Of a stretch of 64,000 bases of DNA, positions 3,789 to 64,000 are shown piece after piece. Position numbers and translations under genes: made by a program. Within the stretch, counting starts at the first letter, position 1. The number at the start of each line of letters is the position of its first letter. Source of the DNA: Desulfomicrobium orale DSM 12838 (GTDB lineage Bacteria; Desulfobacterota; Desulfovibrionia; Desulfovibrionales; Desulfomicrobiaceae); the NCBI RefSeq assembly GCF_001553625.1, contig NZ_CP014230.1, forward strand, positions 124,001 through 188,000, written 5' to 3'. The notes beneath the pieces were generated by a model, which worked only from the letters and a program-made list of their open reading frames with translations, searched no databases and was not told where the DNA came from.

Positions 3789-5000
3789 ATGACTCCAACC
3801 GTATCCATCATCATTCCGGTCCGAAACCAGTGGAAACTGACTGAAGCCTGCCTGCGCAGTCTGGCTGAACACACGCCGCAGGACGATATACAGGTACTGG
3901 TCATGGACAACGGCTCCACGGATGACACCTCCACCCAATGCGCGCCCCTGGGCACGGCTCTGTTTGGTTCACGGTTCAGGCATATCCCTCTGGGTCACAA
4001 CAGAAACTTCGGTCCGGCCTGCAACGAAGGAGCCCGTGCAGCCAATGCCGATTATCTTTTCTTTTTGAACAATGATACTCTGCTCACCGCCGGATGGCTG
4101 CCGCCGCTGCTCGACGCCTTTGCGCGACAGCCGGACCTGGGCGCCACGGGTCCCCTTCTCCTCTACCCCGACGACCGGGTCCAGCATGCAGGAGTAACCT
4201 TTACACCTACCTGGCAGGTCACGCACCTTTACCAGTTTTTTCCCCGGAATCATCCCGTTCTGTTCAAAAAACGGACTGTGCAGGCCCTGACCGGGGCGGC
4301 CCTCATGATACCCGCCGGACTCTTCACGTCCTGCGGCGGATTCTTTGAGGAGTACCGTAACGGCTACGAAGACCTGGATCTGTGCGCCCAGATCAGAGGC
4401 AAAAAATTAGTCCTGCGCTGCACCCCTCAGAGCGTGGTCTATCATCTCACCAGCCAGACACCGGGACGTTTTGATTCAGACAACCATAACGCCCTGCTCC
4501 TCAGCAGACGCTGTGACGGCGTATTCCAACCGGATCAGCATCGCTTCGGCACGGAAGACGGATACATGTTCCATCTGAGCCCGACTTTGCATGCCATCCT
4601 GACCGCAAAGAGTCCGTCTGAAACAGTAGATATGAATAGCCCACACGCGCTATGGAGTGCAGTGAACGCCGAGCCTCTCTGGGCAGAGGGATATATCGCC
4701 CTGTTCAACATCCTGGCTGAACAGAAAAAATGGGCAACTGCTTTTGATCTGCTTCAAATGGAAATGCGATTTTTCCCTCAAGAAATACTCTTGAAGCGCA
4801 TGGCAAAGACAGCAACATTCCTAAAAAATAAAGATCTCATATCATCTGTACAAAAATTCATGCAAAATATGCGCGAAGAAATGCAATCAATTTCATTGCG
4901 AAAAAAATTTATGATGCTGCATGACTGGGCAAAAGAACATGAGGATAAATATATGCTGGGCGCATGTGTACGGTGGATGAAGGAGTGTCCAGGATCCTGA
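3789..5000 (+). CDS. Family 2 glycosyltransferase
   Basis: This is a 403-residue protein. It opens with the GT-A signature VSIIIPVRNQ, followed by VLVMDNGSTDDT and LGHNRNFGPACNEG. The metal/nucleotide-sugar motif is NNDT at residues 94-97, which replaces the classical DxD. A GYEDLDLCAQIRGKK segment follows in the catalytic-base region, as in rhamnosyl- and related GT2 enzymes. The last 110 residues are a helical extension. The cytoplasmic enzyme would transfer a sugar from a nucleotide donor to a growing glycan. It follows the TylF-type gene by 72 bases and probably shares its transcript. The 3' end becomes AT-rich, matching the change of base composition downstream. Confidence 0.9.
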   Translation: MTPTVSIIIPVRNQWKLTEACLRSLAEHTPQDDIQVLVMDNGSTDDTSTQCAPLGTALFGSRFRHIPLGHNRNFGPACNEGARAANADYLFFLNNDTLLTAGWLPPLLDAFARQPDLGATGPLLLYPDDRVQHAGVTFTPTWQVTHLYQFFPRNHPVLFKKRTVQALTGAALMIPAGLFTSCGGFFEEYRNGYEDLDLCAQIRGKKLVLRCTPQSVVYHLTSQTPGRFDSDNHNALLLSRRCDGVFQPDQHRFGTEDGYMFHLSPTLHAILTAKSPSETVDMNSPHALWSAVNAEPLWAEGYIALFNILAEQKKWATAFDLLQMEMRFFPQEILLKRMAKTATFLKNKDLISSVQKFMQNMREEMQSISLRKKFMMLHDWAKEHEDKYMLGACVRWMKECPGS

Positions 5001-5136
5001 AAATTTTCAGAAACTCCCATACTGCGCCGGCTGTACCCATCCTTTATACTAAAACAGATGACAGTGTTTCCAGCCAAAACCCAGAAATGGAGCCTCTGTA
5101 AGCACTTTGACAGGATATTTTTATGGGATTGGACAC

Positions 5137-5165
5137 TTGACAAAAATGTTTGGCAACCATACATA
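5137..5165 (+). promoter_or_regulatory. marR promoter with overlapping 19-bp palindromic operator
   Basis: TTGACA (5137-5142) is followed after 17 bases by TACATA (5160-5165). The spacer and -10 are covered by the interrupted palindrome ATGTTTGGCAACCATACAT (5146-5164), in which seven of nine pairs match. Transcription would begin at about 5172, the start codon itself. The same 22-bp core, with two mismatches, recurs at 5917-5938 before the TonB receptor gene. This is a likely binding site of the MarR-family product, acting as an autorepressor. Confidence 0.6.
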
Positions 5166-5171
5166 TTTTCC

Positions 5172-5711
5172 ATGAGTGATCAGGAATTTCAGCAGACGAA
5201 GCTAGGGCATAGTATCCAGGAGTCATTGCACAACAAGAATAGTGATTCCGATGCGGCACGGCTGCGGCGCGGGCATACAAGCTACTCATTGTTCTCTCTT
5301 GTGGCAAAATTTACCGAAATTGAACAACAATCCCGATTTTTTGGCACAGATGTGGAAATCCATAATGCTGAAATTCATATGATTATGGCGATCCATGATG
5401 TTGAAGGAATTCACGTTACTGGGCTAGCCGACAGGTTGCATATCACTAAAGGGAGCGTTTCCGAACTTTTGCGTAAGCTGGAACAGAAAAAACTTATCCA
5501 CAAAGACACCGATCCGTTGAAGCTTTCTCGGATCAATGTATACCTGACAGAAAAAGGTAGAATCGCTCACGAGCATCATCTTTTATACCATGAACGGATT
5601 AATGGGATGATTGACCAGGTGATGAGTCATTATTCCTCTGAGCAGATCGAATTTCTGAATCATTTTCTTAACAATGTGCGTTCTGGATTGGATTCTATGG
5701 GCTGGAGTTGA
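5172..5711 (+). CDS. MarR-family transcriptional regulator
   Basis: This is a 179-residue protein. The open frame extends upstream to an ATG at 5058, but that segment crosses the predicted promoter and reads unlike the family, so ATG 5172 is chosen. The winged helix-turn-helix is seen in IHVTGLADRLHITKGSVSELLRKLEQKKLI (helices around residues 70-100), followed by a wing with DPLKLSRINVYLTEKG. Flanking helices would form the dimer interface. No Shine-Dalgarno sequence precedes the start. Together with the promoter geometry, this suggests a leaderless mRNA. The gene stands 255 bases upstream of a TonB receptor gene whose promoter carries the same palindrome. It therefore probably represses both itself and the receptor-methyltransferase pair. 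The ligand is unknown; a metal complex or a small aromatic compound is possible. Confidence 0.85.
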   Translation: MSDQEFQQTKLGHSIQESLHNKNSDSDAARLRRGHTSYSLFSLVAKFTEIEQQSRFFGTDVEIHNAEIHMIMAIHDVEGIHVTGLADRLHITKGSVSELLRKLEQKKLIHKDTDPLKLSRINVYLTEKGRIAHEHHLLYHERINGMIDQVMSHYSSEQIEFLNHFLNNVRSGLDSMGWS

Positions 5712-15348: not shown

Positions 15349-17253
<1,905 letters not shown>

Positions 17254-21153: not shown

Positions 21154-22119
21154 TCACATGTTCCGCGGCCCGGAAACGGGCTCGTCATCTCCGCCGCAGG
21201 CCCATCCGCCGTCACACAGGCCACCCGTCTCGCCACCGTCAAAGGAAGCGCCGTCTTCCCTCGGTTCCACGTGAATGGTGATCTGCAGCCCCGGCCAGGC
21301 CTTACGCAACTCCTCCTCGATCTCGCAGCACAGATCGTGGGACCGGCGCACCGTCATGTTTCCGGGCACGAGCAGATGAAAATCCACGAACCGCACCGAC
21401 CCGGCCATGCGCGTGCGCAGGGCGTGAAAGCCGCTTTCCCCGCCCCCCACCCGGCGGATGACGGCGGCCATGCGTTCGATGTCTTCGGCGGGCAGGCCAG
21501 CGTCCATGAGCCCGGACGCCGAGCGCCAGACCAGAGCCGCTCCGGTGCGGATGATGAGCATGGCCATGAGGCAGCCGATGACAGGATCAAGAATCTGCCA
21601 GGACGGCGGCGCGAAAAGCATGACGAACAGCGCCCCGACCAGGCCGGCAGAAGTCCAGACATCCGTCAGCAGATGCCGGGCGTCGGCCTCCAGTGCGATG
21701 CTCCCGCACGCCCTGGCCGCACCGAGCATGATCCGGGCCGTGATCAGATTGACCAGAGCGGCCGCCACGGCCACCGCAATGCCCGCACCCAGAGACTCGA
21801 GGGGCTGCGGATCGAAAAACCGCTGTACGGAAGCGTAGGCGATGCCCAGCGCGGCAAGACAGATCAGGACGCCTTCGACTCCGCTGGAAAAATACTCGAC
21901 CTTTCCGTGACCGTAGGCATGCCCTCTGTCGGCCGGACGCCGGGCCTGGATGATGGCCAGCAGAGCGATGAACCCCGCCGCCAGATTGACCACGGACTCC
22001 ACGGCGTCGGAAAAAAGGCTGACGGAATCCGTCAGAAGGAAGGCTCCGAACTTGAGAGCCATGGTCAGAATCGAAGCCCCGATGGACAGCCAGGCGTATC
22101 TGCGGATACCGGCGGACAT
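21154..22119 (-). CDS. Cation diffusion facilitator (CDF) transporter
   Basis: This is a 321-residue protein from ATG 22119, which starts one base after the stop of the upstream gene. There are six transmembrane segments in the first 200 residues. The metal-site motif in helix 2 is LFSDAVESVVN, and the histidine-rich RGHAYGHGKVEYFSSGVEG follows, as in CDF exporters. The C-terminal cytoplasmic domain carries FHALRTRMAGSVRFVDFHLLVPG. Such proteins export Zn, Fe, Mn, Co or related divalent ions in exchange for protons. Metal specificity cannot be read safely. The extreme C-terminus is rich in Gly and acidic residues. Confidence 0.92.
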   Translation of the reverse strand: MSAGIRRYAWLSIGASILTMALKFGAFLLTDSVSLFSDAVESVVNLAAGFIALLAIIQARRPADRGHAYGHGKVEYFSSGVEGVLICLAALGIAYASVQRFFDPQPLESLGAGIAVAVAAALVNLITARIMLGAARACGSIALEADARHLLTDVWTSAGLVGALFVMLFAPPSWQILDPVIGCLMAMLIIRTGAALVWRSASGLMDAGLPAEDIERMAAVIRRVGGGESGFHALRTRMAGSVRFVDFHLLVPGNMTVRRSHDLCCEIEEELRKAWPGLQITIHVEPREDGASFDGGETGGLCDGGWACGGDDEPVSGPRNM

Positions 22120-22120
22120 T

Positions 22121-22699
22121 TCAGTAGTTCCAGACATCGAAGAAATTGAACCCCAGAAGCACGCGCACGTCGCGGCGGGCGCGGAAAAAGGCCGTACCGC
22201 GCACGGGACAGAAAAAGAACATGCCGTTGTCGAGAATCCAGAAATCGTCCTCCCGGTCGTGGACAATGGCGAAAGAATGCCTGCGCCCGGAGAATTCCAC
22301 GGAAACGACACCCAGGGCGCTGTCGGGAAACCCCGCGTCGCGCAGCCGATGCATGATGGCGATGGCCTGATCGAGGCTGATGCCCCGGCCCCGGTCCAGA
22401 GTCACGGAGGAAGGCCGCCACAGGTCGCCCAGTTCGTGCCGGATCTCCAGCAGCGTGCGCCGGTGGATGCGGCGCATCAGGGCCGGATTGATCTTGCCGG
22501 CGGCGCTTCTAGACGGCTGGTCGCCCTCGAAGGTCATGGACTCCATCTGCGTCTTCTGCCAGGTGCGGACATCGTCATAAAGCGGGCTGTCTTTCACCCG
22601 GTCATTTTTCGGCAGCGGCAGCTTTCCGGGCAGAAGGGCATACCCCGCCCGGCGCAGGACGGACAAGGTGCAGCCCAGCCAATAGGTCCAGACATTCAT
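22121..22699 (-). CDS. Hypothetical protein with degenerate transglutaminase-like appearance
   Basis: This is a 192-residue protein; GGAG lies 7 bases before the start at 22699. The C-terminal half resembles bacterial transglutaminase-like cysteine proteinases (BTLCP). ISLDQAIAIMHRLRDAGFP is followed by VEFSGRRHSFAIVHDREDDFWILDN, with His and Asp where the catalytic pair would be. The cysteine expected in the preceding helix (usually GDCEDYA-like) is absent, so the protein may be non-enzymatic, or the resemblance may be coincidental. No signal peptide is clear. It is translationally linked to the CDF transporter. Confidence 0.6.
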   Translation of the reverse strand: MNVWTYWLGCTLSVLRRAGYALLPGKLPLPKNDRVKDSPLYDDVRTWQKTQMESMTFEGDQPSRSAAGKINPALMRRIHRRTLLEIRHELGDLWRPSSVTLDRGRGISLDQAIAIMHRLRDAGFPDSALGVVSVEFSGRRHSFAIVHDREDDFWILDNGMFFFCPVRGTAFFRARRDVRVLLGFNFFDVWNY

Positions 22700-31499: not shown

Positions 31500-32942
31500 C
31501 TACTTCGCCAGCTTGGCTTTCTGTTCTTTATAGAGGTCCTTGTAGACACGATTGAAAAAGTGCGCCGTAGAACGGCAGGCCTCGCCGACAACCACGTCTA
31601 TATGCCTGCCTTGGGCGCGTTCGGCCAAGTTGTCGGTCTTGGCGCGTGGAGTCTCGATGTGCCAGGCCTGAACGGCCTTCCCGTCAAAATCGTCGATTAC
31701 AATGGTGAACTGCCCTTCCGGTCCCGTATACTTGTTGTTCTTGGCATCCAGAACGATCTTCTCGGCATTTTCCAGCACGACCTCGTGCGGATAGGTGCAC
31801 GTCGCTCAGGTCTCCGGAATAGAGAGAAATCTGGGGTCTGCCGCCCAAGCCGCAGAATTGCGAAGTCCCATGACGCCGGAATATGCTACAAGGCTGGCCT
31901 TTCCCGCCCTTATGGGGCCGCCGTCCTTGAACACGTTCATATGCACGGCCACATCCTGGCCCTTGGACAGCGCCCAGAAAGGAGCGCAGGCCGGAGTGGA
32001 AAGCGGAACCCACTTCATGCGTTCCCTGTTGTAGGGGCCAAGCACCTTTTCAACACTGCCCCGTGCGTCCTTCAGGCGGATTTTCACACTGTCCGCGGTC
32101 ACGTCCAGAACATCCACCACGCCCCCCGCAATGGTGAAACTGTCACCTTTGACAACATCCTTGACCTGCGGCCTGTCCGGACTGACATACAGGCAGACGC
32201 TGTTGTCAGTGGCCAGTTCCAGAACCTTCACTTCATCAGCGGTGATCGATTCAACGACTACATAGCTGCGCCCCACCCCGCTGAAACTGGAGGCATACAG
32301 GGCCTCGCCAATCCCGTTCTCGGCTGTGGGCGCGGTAATGCCTTCTTTTTCCTTTGTGCCTTTCGACCAGTTGCTGTCCGCCACATTGGTGATCAGATCA
32401 CCGGCGTAGGCGGGAAACTCGACGCCGTAATAGTTGCCCGTGGCCTTGAGCAGTTTGAAGGTGGCGGTGCCCTGACCGGGCAGATAGTACGGCAGGGGAT
32501 CGATGCTGGTGAGCTCAAAACCTCGCGTCCTGTTTTTGTCCACGGGTATGACCTGGTTCTTCTTGAAGGTTACGTTCCTGATCACCGTACGCTCGGAAAT
32601 GTTGTTGATGGCCACGTATTCCTTGCCGGCAATGGTCAGGGGCTTGCCCGCGAACGGCTCCCAGTTTCCCGAACGGCTCGTCACATAAAGGCCTCCCGGG
32701 GGAATGACGATTTTGCCGTCTTTAATGTAGCTCTGACGGATGACAATGCCGTCATTTGCGGTGTGTGCCGTGCCCAGATAGCTCTTGAGCTTGTGGTTGT
32801 TGACCATTCCGGGCAGCAGCGAGACATAGGCCGCGTCTTTGGCGGGCGACTGCATGGTCACGCGCTCGGAGCCGAAAACGACGCACGGCAGCGCGACAGC
32901 CAGGGTAAGTGCGCCCAGCAGAAATCCGGATGTGCGTTTCAT
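31500..32942 (-). CDS. Putative periplasmic selenoprotein with Sec-x-x-Cys motif, read through UGA at 31806-31808
   Basis: Conventional calling gives a 378-residue protein stopping at UGA (31808-31806), and a separate 92-residue GTG ORF in the same frame. Read as one frame the product is 480 residues. GGAGGAAG precedes ATG 32942, and a signal peptide follows (MKRTSGFLLGALTLAVALPC). A long beta-rich region then leads to the UGA, residue 379, in the context IPET-Sec-ATCTYPHEVV. After the UGA, 101 codons stay open with protein-like composition (FTIVIDDFDGKAVQAWHIET, VVVGEACRS) to TAG 31500-31502. The Sec-Ala-Thr-Cys spacing is a classic redox UxxC. A SECIS-like hairpin follows the UGA, and selB is in the window. 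It is the last gene of a PhsABC-like operon. I do not recognise the family. The alternative is a true stop or a nonsense mutation. Confidence 0.72.
31772..31790 (-). promoter_or_regulatory. SECIS-like hairpin
   Basis: On the mRNA, CCGCACG-AGGU-CGUGC-u-GG forms a 5-bp GC-rich stem. It extends to 7 bp if one U is bulged. The loop AGGU begins after 22 nucleotides counted from the UGA. Bacterial SECIS elements are short hairpins starting just after the UGA, with a G-containing small apical loop; the E. coli fdhF loop contains AGGUCU. The resemblance is seen by eye and was not folded computationally. Confidence 0.6.
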
Positions 32943-33024
32943 ACTTCCTCCAGGTTAAAATGGGGGCCGGAATCCGGTCCTGAACCGCAGACACCGTCCC
33001 GGCGGCATTCCGGCCGACGACCCG

Positions 33025-33327
33025 TCAGCACGAGCATTCCGTTCCATCTATTCCGTAAATGCCGATCACCTTCAGAAGTTCCTCCTTTTTGGCTTCATCA
33101 ATACCTTCGATCTCCAGCAGCTGGCTGGTCGCGGTGAAGTCCCCATTGAGTTCACGGTACTCCACGATGGCCGCAGCCAGATCCGGTCCTATCTCGGGCA
33201 GGGCGGCCAGCTCCGCCTCGGTGGCGGTATTGATGTTCAGCTTCTCGGTCTCGGCGGAGAGAACCGCCGCTCCAAAAAAGAGAATCACCAGCGTTGCAAT
33301 GTAAGCCAACACATTTTTCAAACTCAT
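33025..33327 (-). CDS. Secreted ComEA-like helix-hairpin-helix protein
   Basis: This is a 100-residue protein with GGAGG before the start. A hydrophobic signal peptide or anchor (VLAYIATLVILFFGAAVLSA) is followed by a ComEA-type double helix-hairpin-helix: LNINTATEAELAALPEIGPDLAAAIVEYRELNGDFTATSQLLEIEGIDEAKKEELLKVIG. It ends in Cys-Ser-Cys, an unusual two-cysteine tail. ComEA proteins bind DNA in competence, but exported single-copy relatives inside respiratory operons are common in deltaproteobacteria and their role is unclear. The cysteine tail could be a redox or metal site working with the downstream Sec-x-x-Cys protein. It lies between the cytochrome b and selenoprotein genes. Confidence 0.85.
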   Translation of the reverse strand: MSLKNVLAYIATLVILFFGAAVLSAETEKLNINTATEAELAALPEIGPDLAAAIVEYRELNGDFTATSQLLEIEGIDEAKKEELLKVIGIYGIDGTECSC

Positions 33328-33338
33328 ACGCCCCTCCT

Positions 33339-34076
33339 TCAGGTTTCATTGTCCACAGCCGCTTCTTTGCCAAAAAGTTCCGCATGCCAGAGCGGATTAT
33401 GATGCCGGATGAAATCTTCCGGGACCGTGCCGGTGAACATGGAACGCAGGGCCGGAGCTTCTCCCGGGGCCAATGCGGCCATGTAAATGTGTATGGGCAG
33501 AACCATCCCCATGATCCCGGCGCAGAGCAGATGAAAAAACATGCACCACTGCGTAAGCTGCGTCCCCATGTCCATGACGGTGTTAAGACAAAGTATGGTT
33601 CCACTCCCGGACAGGCCCATGCCGCATACAAGAACAGCCATGGCCGCGAACTTCTGGCCTGCGTTGTAGAAACCCTGTGGCGGCAGAGCCGGATCCAGTC
33701 CGAGCTTTTTCATCCCCCTGACGCCGATGGTGAGCCGCAAAGTCTTGCGCAGGCACCATGTCAGGTCGCTTCCCGGTTTGAGACGGAAGATTTCACGCAA
33801 AAAGGGAATGACGTCGGGTCTGACATAGAAGACGGCATACAGCAGCACGCCCGCCATCCAGAGGACACCCAGCGCAATATGCCCGCGCAGCAGAGCGTCC
33901 GCACCGAAGATTCCATCCAGCAGGCGGGACCACCACAGCCCGACGATCACGACATCCGGATTGCGCAGCATCCCCAAACCGCCAAGCAGCAACAGGATAA
34001 ACATGACGGCGTTGAACCAGTGCATGATCATGGCACCGCGGCTGTGGCGCCGGACAAATCGTGTTTCGCTAGCCAT
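33339..34076 (-). CDS. Cytochrome b membrane subunit (FdnI/PhsC-like)
   Basis: This is a 245-residue protein with four to five transmembrane segments. Probable haem-ligating histidines lie in AMIMHWFNAVMFILLLLGG, LLRGHIALGVLWMAGVLLY and WCMFFHLLCAGIMGMVLPIHIYM. The layout matches the di-haem cytochrome b subunits of formate dehydrogenase-N (FdnI) and thiosulfate reductase (PhsC). It would link the menaquinone pool to the periplasmic catalytic subunits. The start overlaps the stop of the iron-sulfur subunit by 8 bases, so the two are translationally coupled. Confidence 0.88.
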   Translation of the reverse strand: MASETRFVRRHSRGAMIMHWFNAVMFILLLLGGLGMLRNPDVVIVGLWWSRLLDGIFGADALLRGHIALGVLWMAGVLLYAVFYVRPDVIPFLREIFRLKPGSDLTWCLRKTLRLTIGVRGMKKLGLDPALPPQGFYNAGQKFAAMAVLVCGMGLSGSGTILCLNTVMDMGTQLTQWCMFFHLLCAGIMGMVLPIHIYMAALAPGEAPALRSMFTGTVPEDFIRHHNPLWHAELFGKEAAVDNET

Positions 34077-34785
34077 TACCCTCTCCTTCCTTTCCGGACG
34101 GATTGAAGAGCTGGCGCAGGCCCACCGCAGCCAGGCCCAGAAGAGTCAGGCCGCCGAGCCAGCGCGAAGCTGCGGCCACCGGGGCCATCAGACCGATGGC
34201 AAGGGGTATTCCAGCCGCTTTGGGCCAGTATTTGTCCCGGACCTCGGAGAGATAGGCCAGCCTCGGACTGGTCGGCGTTTCCCTCGACTCCACGAATTCA
34301 GGCCGACGGCTTCCAAGGATGGCGGCCACTTCGGAATCCGGGTCATCGGCGTCTCCGAAAATGCGTGCTCTGGTCGGGCATACACCGACGCAGGCCGGTT
34401 CAAGGCCAAGGGGCACAAGGCTGTCGCCGCAATAATCGCATTTATCTATGCGCCGGGTTCCGGCATTGATGTGCCGCGCCCCGTAAGGGCAGGCTTCGGC
34501 ACAGCTGCCACAGGCAATGCACAGGTTGTTGTGCACCTGCACGGCGCAGTTTTCGTCCACGAATGTCGCCCCTGTGGGGCAGGCTTCAACGCAAAGCGGC
34601 TCGGAGCAGTGCATGCAGGCTCCGGGCTGGAAGGCCATTCCCGTTGGCAGATCACCTGCCGGAGTGACGCGTACCCAGTTGCGGCTCTGATCCGGCTCCA
34701 CGGCATTGTTCACTTTACAGGCCATCACGCAGGCCATGCAGCCGGTACAGCGTGCGGGGTCAACGGTCATGATGAATCTCGCCAT
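34069..34785 (-). CDS. Four-cluster ferredoxin subunit with C-terminal membrane anchor (PhsB/FdnH-like)
   Basis: This is a 238-residue protein. ATG 34785 is chosen because GGGAGG lies upstream and the sequence begins MARFIMTVDPARCTGC. Cysteine groups CTGCMACVMAC, CMHCSEPLCVEACP, CIACGSCAEACP, and CDYC...CVGVCP give the sixteen cysteines for four 4Fe-4S clusters. A hydrophobic segment near the C-terminus (GIPLAIGLMAPVAAASRW, then LTLLGLAAVGL) anchors it in the membrane. It passes electrons between the molybdenum subunit and cytochrome b. Its start follows the stop of the molybdenum subunit gene by two bases. Confidence 0.93.
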   Translation of the reverse strand: MARFIMTVDPARCTGCMACVMACKVNNAVEPDQSRNWVRVTPAGDLPTGMAFQPGACMHCSEPLCVEACPTGATFVDENCAVQVHNNLCIACGSCAEACPYGARHINAGTRRIDKCDYCGDSLVPLGLEPACVGVCPTRARIFGDADDPDSEVAAILGSRRPEFVESRETPTSPRLAYLSEVRDKYWPKAAGIPLAIGLMAPVAAASRWLGGLTLLGLAAVGLRQLFNPSGKEGEGNG

Positions 34786-34787
34786 GT

Positions 34788-37010
34788 TCAGCCCTCCCGC
34801 TCCACACGGATGTTTGCAGAATCTGCCACCTTGACCAGCCTGCACCCGGTTCCGTTGAATTGTGCGGAAACCCTGTCCCAGTTGTTGGGCAAAATGGAGT
34901 TCAGCGCCCTGCTCCTGGTTCCGGCGTACGGGCTGCCCTCCACAAAATGCGAGGCAGTGAAGACCACACCCGGCCGGATGTTGCCGGTCACATCCACACG
35001 GGCCTCCAGACCACCCACGACAGTTTCGAGCCTGACCGGATCGCCGTGAACGAGATTAAATGCGGCGGCCGTATCCGGATGCACCTGCACAAGGCGCCCC
35101 CGGGCCATCCTCGACAGCGACGGCGAAAAATTGGTCATGGTCTGCTGCCACTGAGTGACGACCTTGCCCTGAATGAGCACAAGGGGAAAATCCTTCTCCG
35201 CCTTGGGCCGGTGCGGACTGCTACGCGGATATTCCCACGAAAAGCCACCCAGCGTCGGCAGGACGAAATTGAGTTTACCGTCTTCCGTTTCCAGTACACC
35301 GCGGGAGAAAATGCTGCCGGTGAGAATGGGCGAGTCAGTCCGGGGCCGGGGCCAGACAAGACCATCCGGCGACTTGCGCATGGCTTCCACGCTGAATCCG
35401 TTCCAGGAGTCTACGGTACGGTTGAAAAGCTCGGAAAGCTCCGCCGGATCGCGAAAGTCCGGGTAGACTTCCGGAGCGACCAGCCGCCCTATGTCACGGT
35501 AGAAACGCCAGTCCGGCACGCAGGAGCCGGGGGCCTCCACAGCCTGATCGCGCCAGACAACCTGTTTTTCCGCGCCATAATGGGAACCGGAACTCTCCGG
35601 TGAATATGTAGCCGGAACGAAGAGATCGGCCACCTCAAGTTCGTCGGTCCGGTAGAAGCCCCGGTACACCACGAAGCCGCACTGCTTCATGGCTTCGCGT
35701 ACGGCATCACAGTCCGGATAACGGCGGTAGCTGGAATTGAGGAACAAAAGATCAATGGCGCCTTTCTTCATGGCGGCCAGAAGGCGGCGGAAGTTCACTC
35801 CCGGCATGCTGGCCGGACCGCAGACTGCGTCTATGAATTCCTTTTCACCCTCGGGTTTGCCGCCTTCCATGGTCAGAAGGCCCCTGCCGGAGCCGATGAT
35901 GTTGCCCGTGAGCCCCTGAAGACTGATGATGAAGCGGATTGTCTGCACACCGTTGGTGAAGCGGCAAAGGCTCCCGCCCATCCAGATGACGGTGCGTTCG
36001 CTGGCGGCCACATCGGCATAGAAAGCGCCGAGTTCTTCCGCACCCAATCGAGTGATCTCCATCACCCTTTCTGCCGTCCACGGGCTTGCGCCTTTCCGCA
36101 ACGCCTCGAGCCCTGTCGTCGTGCGTCCGACCATCCCGGCATCGTACAAACCATTCTCCAGAATGTGCCGTATGGTGCCCAGAGCCAGAACCCCGTCCGT
36201 CCCCGGCTCCGGTTGAAGCTGGACATCCGCGAACAGGCTGGTCGGAGTTCTGCGCGGGTCAATATAGATGATCTTCGTGCCGCCCGCCTTTGCCTTGTCC
36301 AGCCAGCGCGAATAAACCGGATAAGTCTCGGCCAGATTGGCGCCCCAGAGGACCAAAAGCCTGGCGTTGGTGATTTCATCCACAGTAGTAGTGGACGTGT
36401 TGGCTCCCAGCAGCATGCTCAACACGTTGGCGGTGGTGCTGATGCAGACCTCTCCAGCGGGCATGATGTTAACACCGCCGGACACGCGCATGGTCATGAG
36501 AGCGGCCAGCTCGCTTTCGCGGCAGTCCCACAGAGGGGACGTGAGGGCCAGACGCTCGCCCGCTTTCGGGCCGTGCTCCTTTTTCAAAGTGATGAGCTTC
36601 TCCGCCACCAGAGCCACGGCTTCGGCATAGGTGACGGTTTTCCAGCCCCGCTCCGTCCTGAGCATCGGTTCGGTAAGCCGTTCCTTACTGTTCATGAGTT
36701 CGAGTATGGACAGCCCCTTGGGGCACATGGCTCCGCCGGTCCAACGGTTGCGGGGATTGCCGGTGATGGACACGATCCGGCCGCTGCTCACCCGGGCGTG
36801 ATAGGTGCAGCGGACCTGACAGAACGGGCAGTAGCCGTTCACAACCGTCGCATCCGGCGGGATGAGCGGTGGATTCTTTAAAGCAGATGCTCCAGAGAAA
36901 GCGCTGGCTCTGCTGAAAGGCCTGATGGCCGCCAGCGACGCACCGGCAAGGCAGGATTTGAGCAACGAGCGGCGGCTGATTTTGAGACCGGTGTTATTAT
37001 CTTTCCGCAT
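34788..37010 (-). CDS. Tat-exported molybdopterin oxidoreductase (PhsA/PsrA-like)
   Basis: This is a 740-residue protein. A twin-arginine signal (SRRSLLKSCLAGASLAA) sends it to the periplasm. The 4Fe-4S site has Cys61, Cys64, Cys68 and Cys96 (CPFCQVRC ... MCPKG). The molybdenum ligand position is Cys189 in GEVCISTT, so this enzyme is of the cysteine and not selenocysteine type. WGANLAETYPV, IIYIDPRRTPTS and VWMGG-like segments bind the two pterin cofactors. The closest families by length and motifs are thiosulfate and polysulfide reductases (PhsA 758 residues, PsrA). With the ferredoxin and FdnI-type subunits the operon has the PhsABC composition. The exact electron acceptor (thiosulfate, polysulfide, tetrathionate, arsenate or selenium oxyanion) cannot be decided. 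Confidence 0.9.
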   Translation of the reverse strand: MRKDNNTGLKISRRSLLKSCLAGASLAAIRPFSRASAFSGASALKNPPLIPPDATVVNGYCPFCQVRCTYHARVSSGRIVSITGNPRNRWTGGAMCPKGLSILELMNSKERLTEPMLRTERGWKTVTYAEAVALVAEKLITLKKEHGPKAGERLALTSPLWDCRESELAALMTMRVSGGVNIMPAGEVCISTTANVLSMLLGANTSTTTVDEITNARLLVLWGANLAETYPVYSRWLDKAKAGGTKIIYIDPRRTPTSLFADVQLQPEPGTDGVLALGTIRHILENGLYDAGMVGRTTTGLEALRKGASPWTAERVMEITRLGAEELGAFYADVAASERTVIWMGGSLCRFTNGVQTIRFIISLQGLTGNIIGSGRGLLTMEGGKPEGEKEFIDAVCGPASMPGVNFRRLLAAMKKGAIDLLFLNSSYRRYPDCDAVREAMKQCGFVVYRGFYRTDELEVADLFVPATYSPESSGSHYGAEKQVVWRDQAVEAPGSCVPDWRFYRDIGRLVAPEVYPDFRDPAELSELFNRTVDSWNGFSVEAMRKSPDGLVWPRPRTDSPILTGSIFSRGVLETEDGKLNFVLPTLGGFSWEYPRSSPHRPKAEKDFPLVLIQGKVVTQWQQTMTNFSPSLSRMARGRLVQVHPDTAAAFNLVHGDPVRLETVVGGLEARVDVTGNIRPGVVFTASHFVEGSPYAGTRSRALNSILPNNWDRVSAQFNGTGCRLVKVADSANIRVEREG

Positions 37011-61811: not shown

Positions 61812-64000
61812 AGATGCGTCATCCATCCTGACAACTCCGAAGAAAAGAGCGAATACAACGCCTTTGGCCAGCCTGTGCGCCGCGTGGACCCCGCCGGAAC
61901 GGTCACCGCGTACGCCTATGACGCTTCCGGAAATCTGCTGAAGATGACCGAGGCCCAGGGCACGAACCTGGAACGCAACAGCACCTTCACCTACGACGCC
62001 CGGGGCAACCAGCTCACGGCCACACGCGGCAGGGCCGTGACGCGCATGGAATACGACGAGTGGGACAATCCGGTCCGCCAGGTGGACGCCGCAGGCGTGG
62101 AGACCCGCTTCACCTACGACGCCCTGGGCCGGGAACTGACCCGCACGCGCGCCGGAGCCGTGTGGAAGCGCGAGTACGGCACGGACGGACGTGTGGCCAA
62201 CTCAACGGACCCGCTGGGCGCGGTGACCCGCTTTTTCTACGACGCGGGCGGGAATCCGGTGAAGACCGTTGACCCCACGGGCAATGCCACGGAAGCGGGC
62301 TACGACCCGGCCGGCCGCATGATGAACGCCACCGATGCTCTGGGCGAAGTGACCCGCTTCACCTACGACAGTCAGGGACGCCCGGCCTCCCGCACGGACG
62401 CCGCCGGTCAGCGGATGGAATATGCCTACACCCCGCGCGGGGACCTGGCCCGGACACAGGATCCCGCCGGGGTCGTGAGCATGACCTACGACGCCCCGGG
62501 CAAAGGGTGCTCCAGTTGCGGCGGCAGTGCCGCGGGCAGACCCGTGCGCGTGAACTACCCCACCTTCTCGCGGCTCTTCGCCTATGACGGACTGGGCCGC
62601 ACGGTCCGCGAAACCGATGTCTTCGGCCCCAAAAACGAGACCCGCGGCGCAAGCTATGTCTACGACAGGGCCGGGCGGCTGGCTGAGAAACGCAAATGGG
62701 CGCACGATCCGGACCTGACGCACCGCGTCACGAAATACGCCTACGACAGGCTGGGACGGCTGGTGCGGGAAACCGACAATCTGGGCCAGGCCACGAACTA
62801 TGGCTACGACACCTGGGACAACCTGCTGGCCCTGACCGACGCCAAGGGGCAGGTCACGCGCTTTGCCCACGACGCCGCCGGACGCACCGTGTCCGAGACC
62901 CGGCCTCTGGGCGGAACCACGCGCTATACCTACAACGCCACCACCGGGCTGCTGGCCGAAAAGCTGGACGCCCGGGGCGTGAAGACGGCCTACGCCTACG
63001 ACCAGATGGGCCGCGTGGTGGGCGTGGACGCTTATGCCGGCGGGCGGACAGAGCCCGGCCGCAGGGTGCGCCTTGCCTACGACCAGATGGGACGGCTGGT
63101 GTTCCATACCGATGGTCAAACCGCCGGAGCCTTCACTTATGACGCCCTGGGCCGCAAGCTCACGGAAACCGTGGACTACGGCTCCTTCAACAAGACGAAT
63201 ACCTATGCCTGGCAGGCCAACGGGCAGCCCGCCGCATTCACCGGCCCCGACGGTCTGGCCCGGACCTATGCCTACGACACGGCCGGGCGGCTCACGGCCA
63301 TGAGCGTGGGTACGGGCATGGTCACTCTGGACGACTTCACCTGGACCGCGCCGGGCACCATGACCCTGCCCGGCGGAACCAGACGCTGCTTCGGATATGA
63401 CGGGCTCCTGCGCGTGACCAGTATCAACGCCACCAGCCCGGCCGATGCCCTGATCCAGAACTACAGCTATACATACGATGACGCGGGAAATATCCGGAAA
63501 AAGGATACCGAGCACGGGGCCTACGCCTACAGCTATGACAAGCTGGACCGGCTCATCCGCTCCGACAACCCCGTCCTGACAGATGAAGCCTTCACCTATG
63601 ACCAGGTGGGGAACCGCCTGTCTTCGGCGGATGTGTCCGGCGGCTGGCTGTATAACGAGAACAACGAACTGCTCCAGGCCGGGAACAGGGCGGAATATAA
63701 ATACGACGCCGCCGGGAATCTGGTGGAAAAGAAAACACCAGAAAGAACACTGCTCTTTGAATACGATCTGGATAACCATCTCTCACGTGTTGCGGACGGC
63801 AACAACGCCACAGTTGCGTCCTATGGATACGACTTCCTGCGCCGCAGAATCTGGAAAGATGTGCGTGGAGTGAAAACCTTCTATCACTATTCCGACAGCG
63901 GCCTTGTGGCCGAGATGGACTCCAATGGAAATACATTAAAGAGTTATGGATACAGACCCGGCTCTCCCTGGGGAACAGACCTGCTGTTCATGCGGGAGAA
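61812..64000 (+). pseudogene. Third Rhs module, headless at the 5' end and cut by the window end
   Basis: The Rhs frame is open from just after TGA 61809-61811 to the window end, with no start codon or ribosome binding site at the homology junction. From 61816 it equals the giant gene at 53728 onward (offset 8088). Between about 63548 and 63660 it instead matches the second module (LIRSDNPVLTDEAFTYDQVGN and DVSGGW). It then returns to the sequence of the giant gene, including DSNGNTLKSYGYRPGSPWG. It lacks a signal peptide and the whole 3500-residue front. The tip and immunity gene lie beyond the window. It is either a silent cassette or a remnant, and is described here as a displaced module, not as proven non-functional. 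Confidence 0.82.
61816..64000 (+). repeat. Rhs core direct repeat, copy B
   Basis: Copy of 53728-55912 at 8088 bp distance without indels, in direct orientation. Recombination between the two would delete the phospholipase-like tip, both immunity genes, the second module and the IS, and would place the third tip on the giant gene. Confidence 0.92.

Follow-up and report, generated by a model that had tools for sequence, protein, structure and literature searches.

A predicted exported selenoprotein family with a Sec-x-x-Cys motif in Desulfomicrobium orale and related bacteria

Comparison with homologous sequences indicates that a gene of Desulfomicrobium orale DSM 12838 almost certainly encodes one exported protein of 480 residues, in which the UGA codon at position 379 is translated as selenocysteine (Sec) within a Sec-Ala-Thr-Cys motif. 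The gene lies in a 64-kb stretch of DNA that was analyzed as a whole and is referred to here as the window. Standard gene calling would split each such gene and lose its most conserved part, and the family occurs in organisms whose genomes were already screened for selenoproteins, an oral sulfate reducer among them. The gene and its defining features are as follows:

31500..32942, minus strand: selenoprotein gene coding for 480 residues, with Sec at UGA379 and a TAG stop (from the ORF reading and the homologs)
31806..31808, minus strand: in-frame UGA, the predicted Sec379, at a position shared with the homologs
31797..31799, minus strand: codon of Cys382, the second residue of the U-x-x-C (from the sequence and the alignment)
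32947..32951, minus strand: Shine-Dalgarno sequence GGAGG, which precedes the ATG of the selenoprotein gene by 4 nt

Re-reading of the sequence agreed with the initial annotation on the frame itself. A 378-codon ORF runs from the ATG at 32942 on the minus strand to the TGA at 31806-31808, its N-terminal residues resemble a signal peptide (predicted), the same frame then stays open for 101 codons to the TAG at 31500-31502, and the motif at the UGA reads U379-A-T-C382. The open frame by itself is weak support for recoding, because 4 of the 22 TGA-ending genes in the window are likewise followed by at least 101 open codons. It is the comparative evidence, not the open frame, that lifts the selenoprotein reading above chance. 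The other long post-TGA frames in the window (3789-5000, 21154-22311, and 62202-63779) were read through, and none was selenoprotein-like. A misleading open frame of this kind is found at 3789-5711 on the plus strand, where a glycosyltransferase-like gene ends in TGA and an unrelated MarR-like regulator continues in the same frame.

To find relatives, a profile was run against 348 genomes from the order, 395 from across the phylum, and one further class. The search recovered one-domain proteins of about 480 residues, mostly with one in-frame TGA, and two-domain proteins of about 980 residues with no TGA. All 26 loci checked, from 23 genomes in four families of the phylum, contain one in-frame TGA at the same site, always as U-x-x-C; the count refers to distinct loci read, G006 and L002 being apparently one record. 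The Sec-site motifs of these loci are PETUATCTYPHE, PETUASCTY, PETUATC[ST]FIHE, PDTUSTCSMFIE, and PDTUASC[SG]ELNE, with HYLUPQC in one distant TGA member. The latter (L083 6579-7985, minus strand, of genome G428) sits on a long branch and has its own neighborhood without a molybdoenzyme.

At the Sec column, Cys is present in 17 other aligned rows, 16 of which have CxxC, and the codon in these Cys homologs is TGC or TGT. The site reads R[PS]DVCGHC in the two-domain homologs and RPEICAEC, nearly the Sec sequence, in two one-domain Cys homologs; the one-domain Cys homolog RPEICAECSFIHEI closely resembles the Sec form RPETUATCSFIHEI in the alignment. The initial annotation had proposed the alignment of UGA with Cys of a CxxC as the decisive check, and this alignment was found in both one-domain and two-domain proteins. 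Among the homologs examined, none terminated at the UGA position and none had TAA or TAG there. In distant members (locus L095 of genome G399; Paracoccus plasmids) Gly replaces the second Cys while Cys stays at the Sec position, so that the Sec position is more constant than its partner Cys. The Sec and Cys forms require three changes on the tree, the deep branches of which are poorly resolved.

The invariant positions of the 31-row alignment are G169, F372, C379, C382, N392, L398, G407, V415, D417, W427, H428, E430, N438, L439, D449, and F462. Nearly all of these columns are at or beyond the UGA, and conservation is highest downstream of it. The dN/dS ratio past the UGA is about 0.05-0.3, similar in magnitude to the upstream ratio or below it (closest pair, 0.013/0.185). 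Judged from these sequence comparisons, the region beyond the UGA is under purifying selection. Synonymous-site constraint after the UGA is only slightly raised; it was set aside as support for Sec, a similar level being seen in Cys genes.

If the UGA were a normal stop, then the 101 codons would be a separate downstream gene or a chance open frame. Frames of this length after a TGA are not rare in the window (see above), and GTG or ATG codons preceded by GAGG or GAAG occur about nine codons past the TGA. The statement of the initial annotation that a downstream gene would have no Shine-Dalgarno sequence was slightly overstated, as a GAGG (4 nt) sits 2 nt before the GTG at 31778-31776; its spacing is poor. 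However, the nine codons that follow the UGA before a restart first becomes possible (A-T-C-T-Y-P-H-E-V, including the invariant Cys382) are conserved at the protein level, which strongly disfavors a separate gene. The Cys homologs, moreover, carry both halves as one uninterrupted protein. Two observations had been named in advance as refuting the selenoprotein reading, namely homologs ending at the same position with any stop codon and a downstream part always encoded as a separate gene, and the homologs show neither. Termination at this UGA is thus considered very improbable. The probability of a pseudogene or a sequencing error, with a Cys codon TGC or TGT changed to TGA, is close to nil. 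Only one base separates TGA from the codons used by the Cys homologs, but the same single TGA recurs in 26 loci from independent assemblies, the frames are intact, and dN/dS is low on either side of the TGA. Conservation of the TGA over such a breadth contradicts this explanation.

The D. orale genome carries selA, selB, selC, and selD, and the tRNA-Sec (selC) with anticodon UCA was found in it. Both selD and an fdh gene contain an in-frame TGA of their own. The initial annotation had placed selB within the window, and the corresponding protein matches TIGR00475 with 357 bits against a cut-off of 242. Across the family, selA is present in 35 of the 35 high-quality genomes that bear a member. 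We also compared the region after the UGA with a published bSECIS model (PMC13188914). The two features concerned are:

15349..17253, minus strand: selB, Sec-specific elongation factor (TIGR00475 match)
31763..31801, minus strand: hairpin consistent with that bSECIS model (AGGU loop, spacing of 22 nt from the UGA, -13.6 kcal/mol), not discriminating

The model fitted 7 of the 24 Sec genes, D. orale included, none of the 11 Cys genes, and 99 of 252 random in-frame positions (39%). The bSECIS result neither supports nor refutes the selenoprotein reading, because random positions also fit the model at this rate. SECIS evidence was accordingly dropped, as the hairpin fold shows no conservation and the model fits random positions just as often. 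An Rfam search of the 64-kb window returned nothing.

The selenoprotein family appears to be undescribed. The initial annotation did not recognize it and had allowed that it might be new; this stands, with no significant match to Pfam or NCBIfam release 20 for the D. orale protein or for 31 family members, and with nothing meaningful in a PDB sequence search. None of the 119 prokaryotic selenoprotein families catalogued in 2026 (PMC13188914) fits, although candidates in a groundwater screen (Deng et al., 2026) may overlap, as may those of Haft and Tolstoy (2025), whose families were covered only through the PMC13188914 review and NCBIfam. For D. orale DSM 12838, the deep-learning screen deep-Sep reported six known selenoproteins and none that was new (PMC12013277). 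Members are spread over sulfate-reducing and related bacteria.

Among redox motifs, UxxC is a common one (PMC13188914). Bacterial UxxC selenoproteins (thioredoxin, DsbA/DsbG-like, DsrE-like, GrdB/PrdB, and others; Table 1 of PMC13188914) share with the D. orale protein the alignment of UGA with Cys of CxxC, the Sec machinery, and a presumed redox or sulfur role. In contrast to these, the D. orale protein has no sequence match to any of them and is predicted to be exported, all-beta, and not thioredoxin-like. Its predicted model (pLDDT 88.7, pTM 0.87) is nearly all-beta with a C-terminal helix at 457-479, and the UxxC falls at the turn of the beta-hairpin that strands 369-378 and 385-392 form, within the C-terminal part where conservation peaks. 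A thioredoxin fold, alpha/beta with the UxxC at a helix N-terminus, was not observed in this model, nor was there a Pfam thioredoxin match, and the predicted fold thus departs from the usual type. The best structural match of the whole model, a loose one, was the Methanosarcina S-layer domain DUF1608 (3u2h; Z 8.9, rmsd 6.5, 208 residues, 12% identity); the remaining whole-model matches were beta domains at ordinary Z, and a search with the C-terminal 138 residues alone gave nothing above Z 3.4. Unlike DUF1608, the D. orale protein has no Pfam match, and to our knowledge no redox motif is known in DUF1608. The match is too loose for a claim of kinship. Most one-domain forms have a Cys456 ahead of the C-terminal helix; the two-domain proteins and some of the Sec forms lack it.

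The selenoprotein gene is the last of five same-strand genes, of which the other four are:

34788..37010, minus strand: molybdopterin oxidoreductase with a TAT-type leader, divergent, below every NCBIfam cut-off
34069..34845, minus strand: 4Fe-4S ferredoxin-type subunit (NrfC/TtrB-like), with its true start probably at 34785
33339..34076, minus strand: cytochrome b561 (PF01292), membrane subunit
33025..33327, minus strand: exported HhH_3 (ComEA-like) protein of 100 aa ending in ECSC, with a conserved C-terminal Cys

Several lineages have kept this operon, with its genes for the molybdoenzyme, the Fe-S protein, cytochrome b, and the HhH protein. Like PhsABC and FdnGHI, it has a Mo catalytic subunit, a 4Fe-4S subunit, and a cytochrome b of PF01292, but it differs from them in that these three subunits fall below NCBIfam cut-offs and the selenoprotein and HhH genes are extra. 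Molybdoenzyme genes are found beside Sec members in several genera and also beside some Cys members (L084, L087, L088, and L091); Sec lineages without the molybdoenzyme operon are L067, L072-L075, and L079-L083. The HhH protein is again encoded close to Sec members as well as Cys members. Its C-terminal Cys tail is near-universal (ECSC, DCNC, DCTC, CNC, or PSKC, with the one exception of L093), and the protein is possibly a partner with a swinging Cys tail. SaoC is a Cys-Cys-COOH selenoprotein, and DsrC and TusE are C-terminal-Cys carriers. As an analogy only, these are small proteins that work with a thiol/selenol system through a C-terminal Cys tail, as the HhH neighbor may do; the neighbor differs in having an HhH fold, being exported, and lacking Sec. 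A TGA after the HhH CxC tail was considered as a second Sec codon and rejected, as the stop is TGA, TAA, or TAG depending on the genome and the following sequence is not conserved. A phage search gave no match.

Judged from its neighbors only, the most likely function of the D. orale protein, which we put forward tentatively, is to take part, once exported, in sulfur or redox chemistry as a selenol/thiol partner. Outside the cytoplasm, the selenol/thiol pair would serve in sulfur handling or thiol redox. Through an exchange of sulfane sulfur or disulfide electrons it would interact with the operon's Cys-tailed HhH protein, and it would be coupled to the molybdoenzyme complex, which is of the Phs/Fdn type. 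An alternative role, as an exported thiol-disulfide reductase or a repair factor that helps to assemble or protect the molybdoenzyme or the cytochromes, would fit the operon shared with the molybdoenzyme subunits and the common redox use of UxxC (PMC13188914), but no molybdoenzyme is nearby in several Sec lineages and the predicted structure has no thioredoxin-like fold; we consider this role unlikely. Quite unlikely, in our estimate, is a selenoprotein whose UxxC binds metal, in a treble-clef or NosL-like manner, in place of redox or sulfur transfer. The beta-hairpin turn bearing the UxxC and the Cys456 of most one-domain forms would suit such a site, and 3 of 31 members gave weak matches to NosL (PF05573), which in the two that could be placed span the motif (E 0.026-0.03). 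However, the best member scored 15.3 bits against a gathering threshold of 24, the two-domain forms and some Sec forms have no Cys456, and distant members have Gly for the second Cys of the motif.

A broader form of the selenol/thiol partner proposal, that exported all-beta non-thioredoxin selenoproteins, a Cys-tailed HhH partner, and a membrane-linked molybdoenzyme form an unrecognized extracytoplasmic relay for sulfur (or selenium) in sulfate reducers and their relatives, is speculative and somewhat doubtful. The molybdoenzyme, the Cys-tailed HhH protein, and the Paracoccus sulfur-carrier genes as neighbors point to a specific and testable link between selenium and extracytoplasmic sulfur chemistry. 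In Paracoccus ferrooxidans pFER4 (L119 6160-14374), the homolog is surrounded by genes for a cysteine desulfurase, TusA, DsrE, a membrane protein, a TusA/MetE-like fusion, selA, and trxB.

Other neighborhoods of the family vary. At four loci (L079 6482-6787, L080 6452-6763, L081 8668-9033, and L082 6271-6627) the place of the HhH protein is taken by a small exported protein that is unrelated to it and ends in IAPDEGC; the one of the four tested had no Pfam match. Two-domain Cys members adjoin a YeiH-type transporter and often arylsulfotransferases; at L085 5525-14002 and similar loci, a YeiH-type transporter is accompanied by a pair of arylsulfotransferase-like proteins and by an exported protein without a name (cluster c23).
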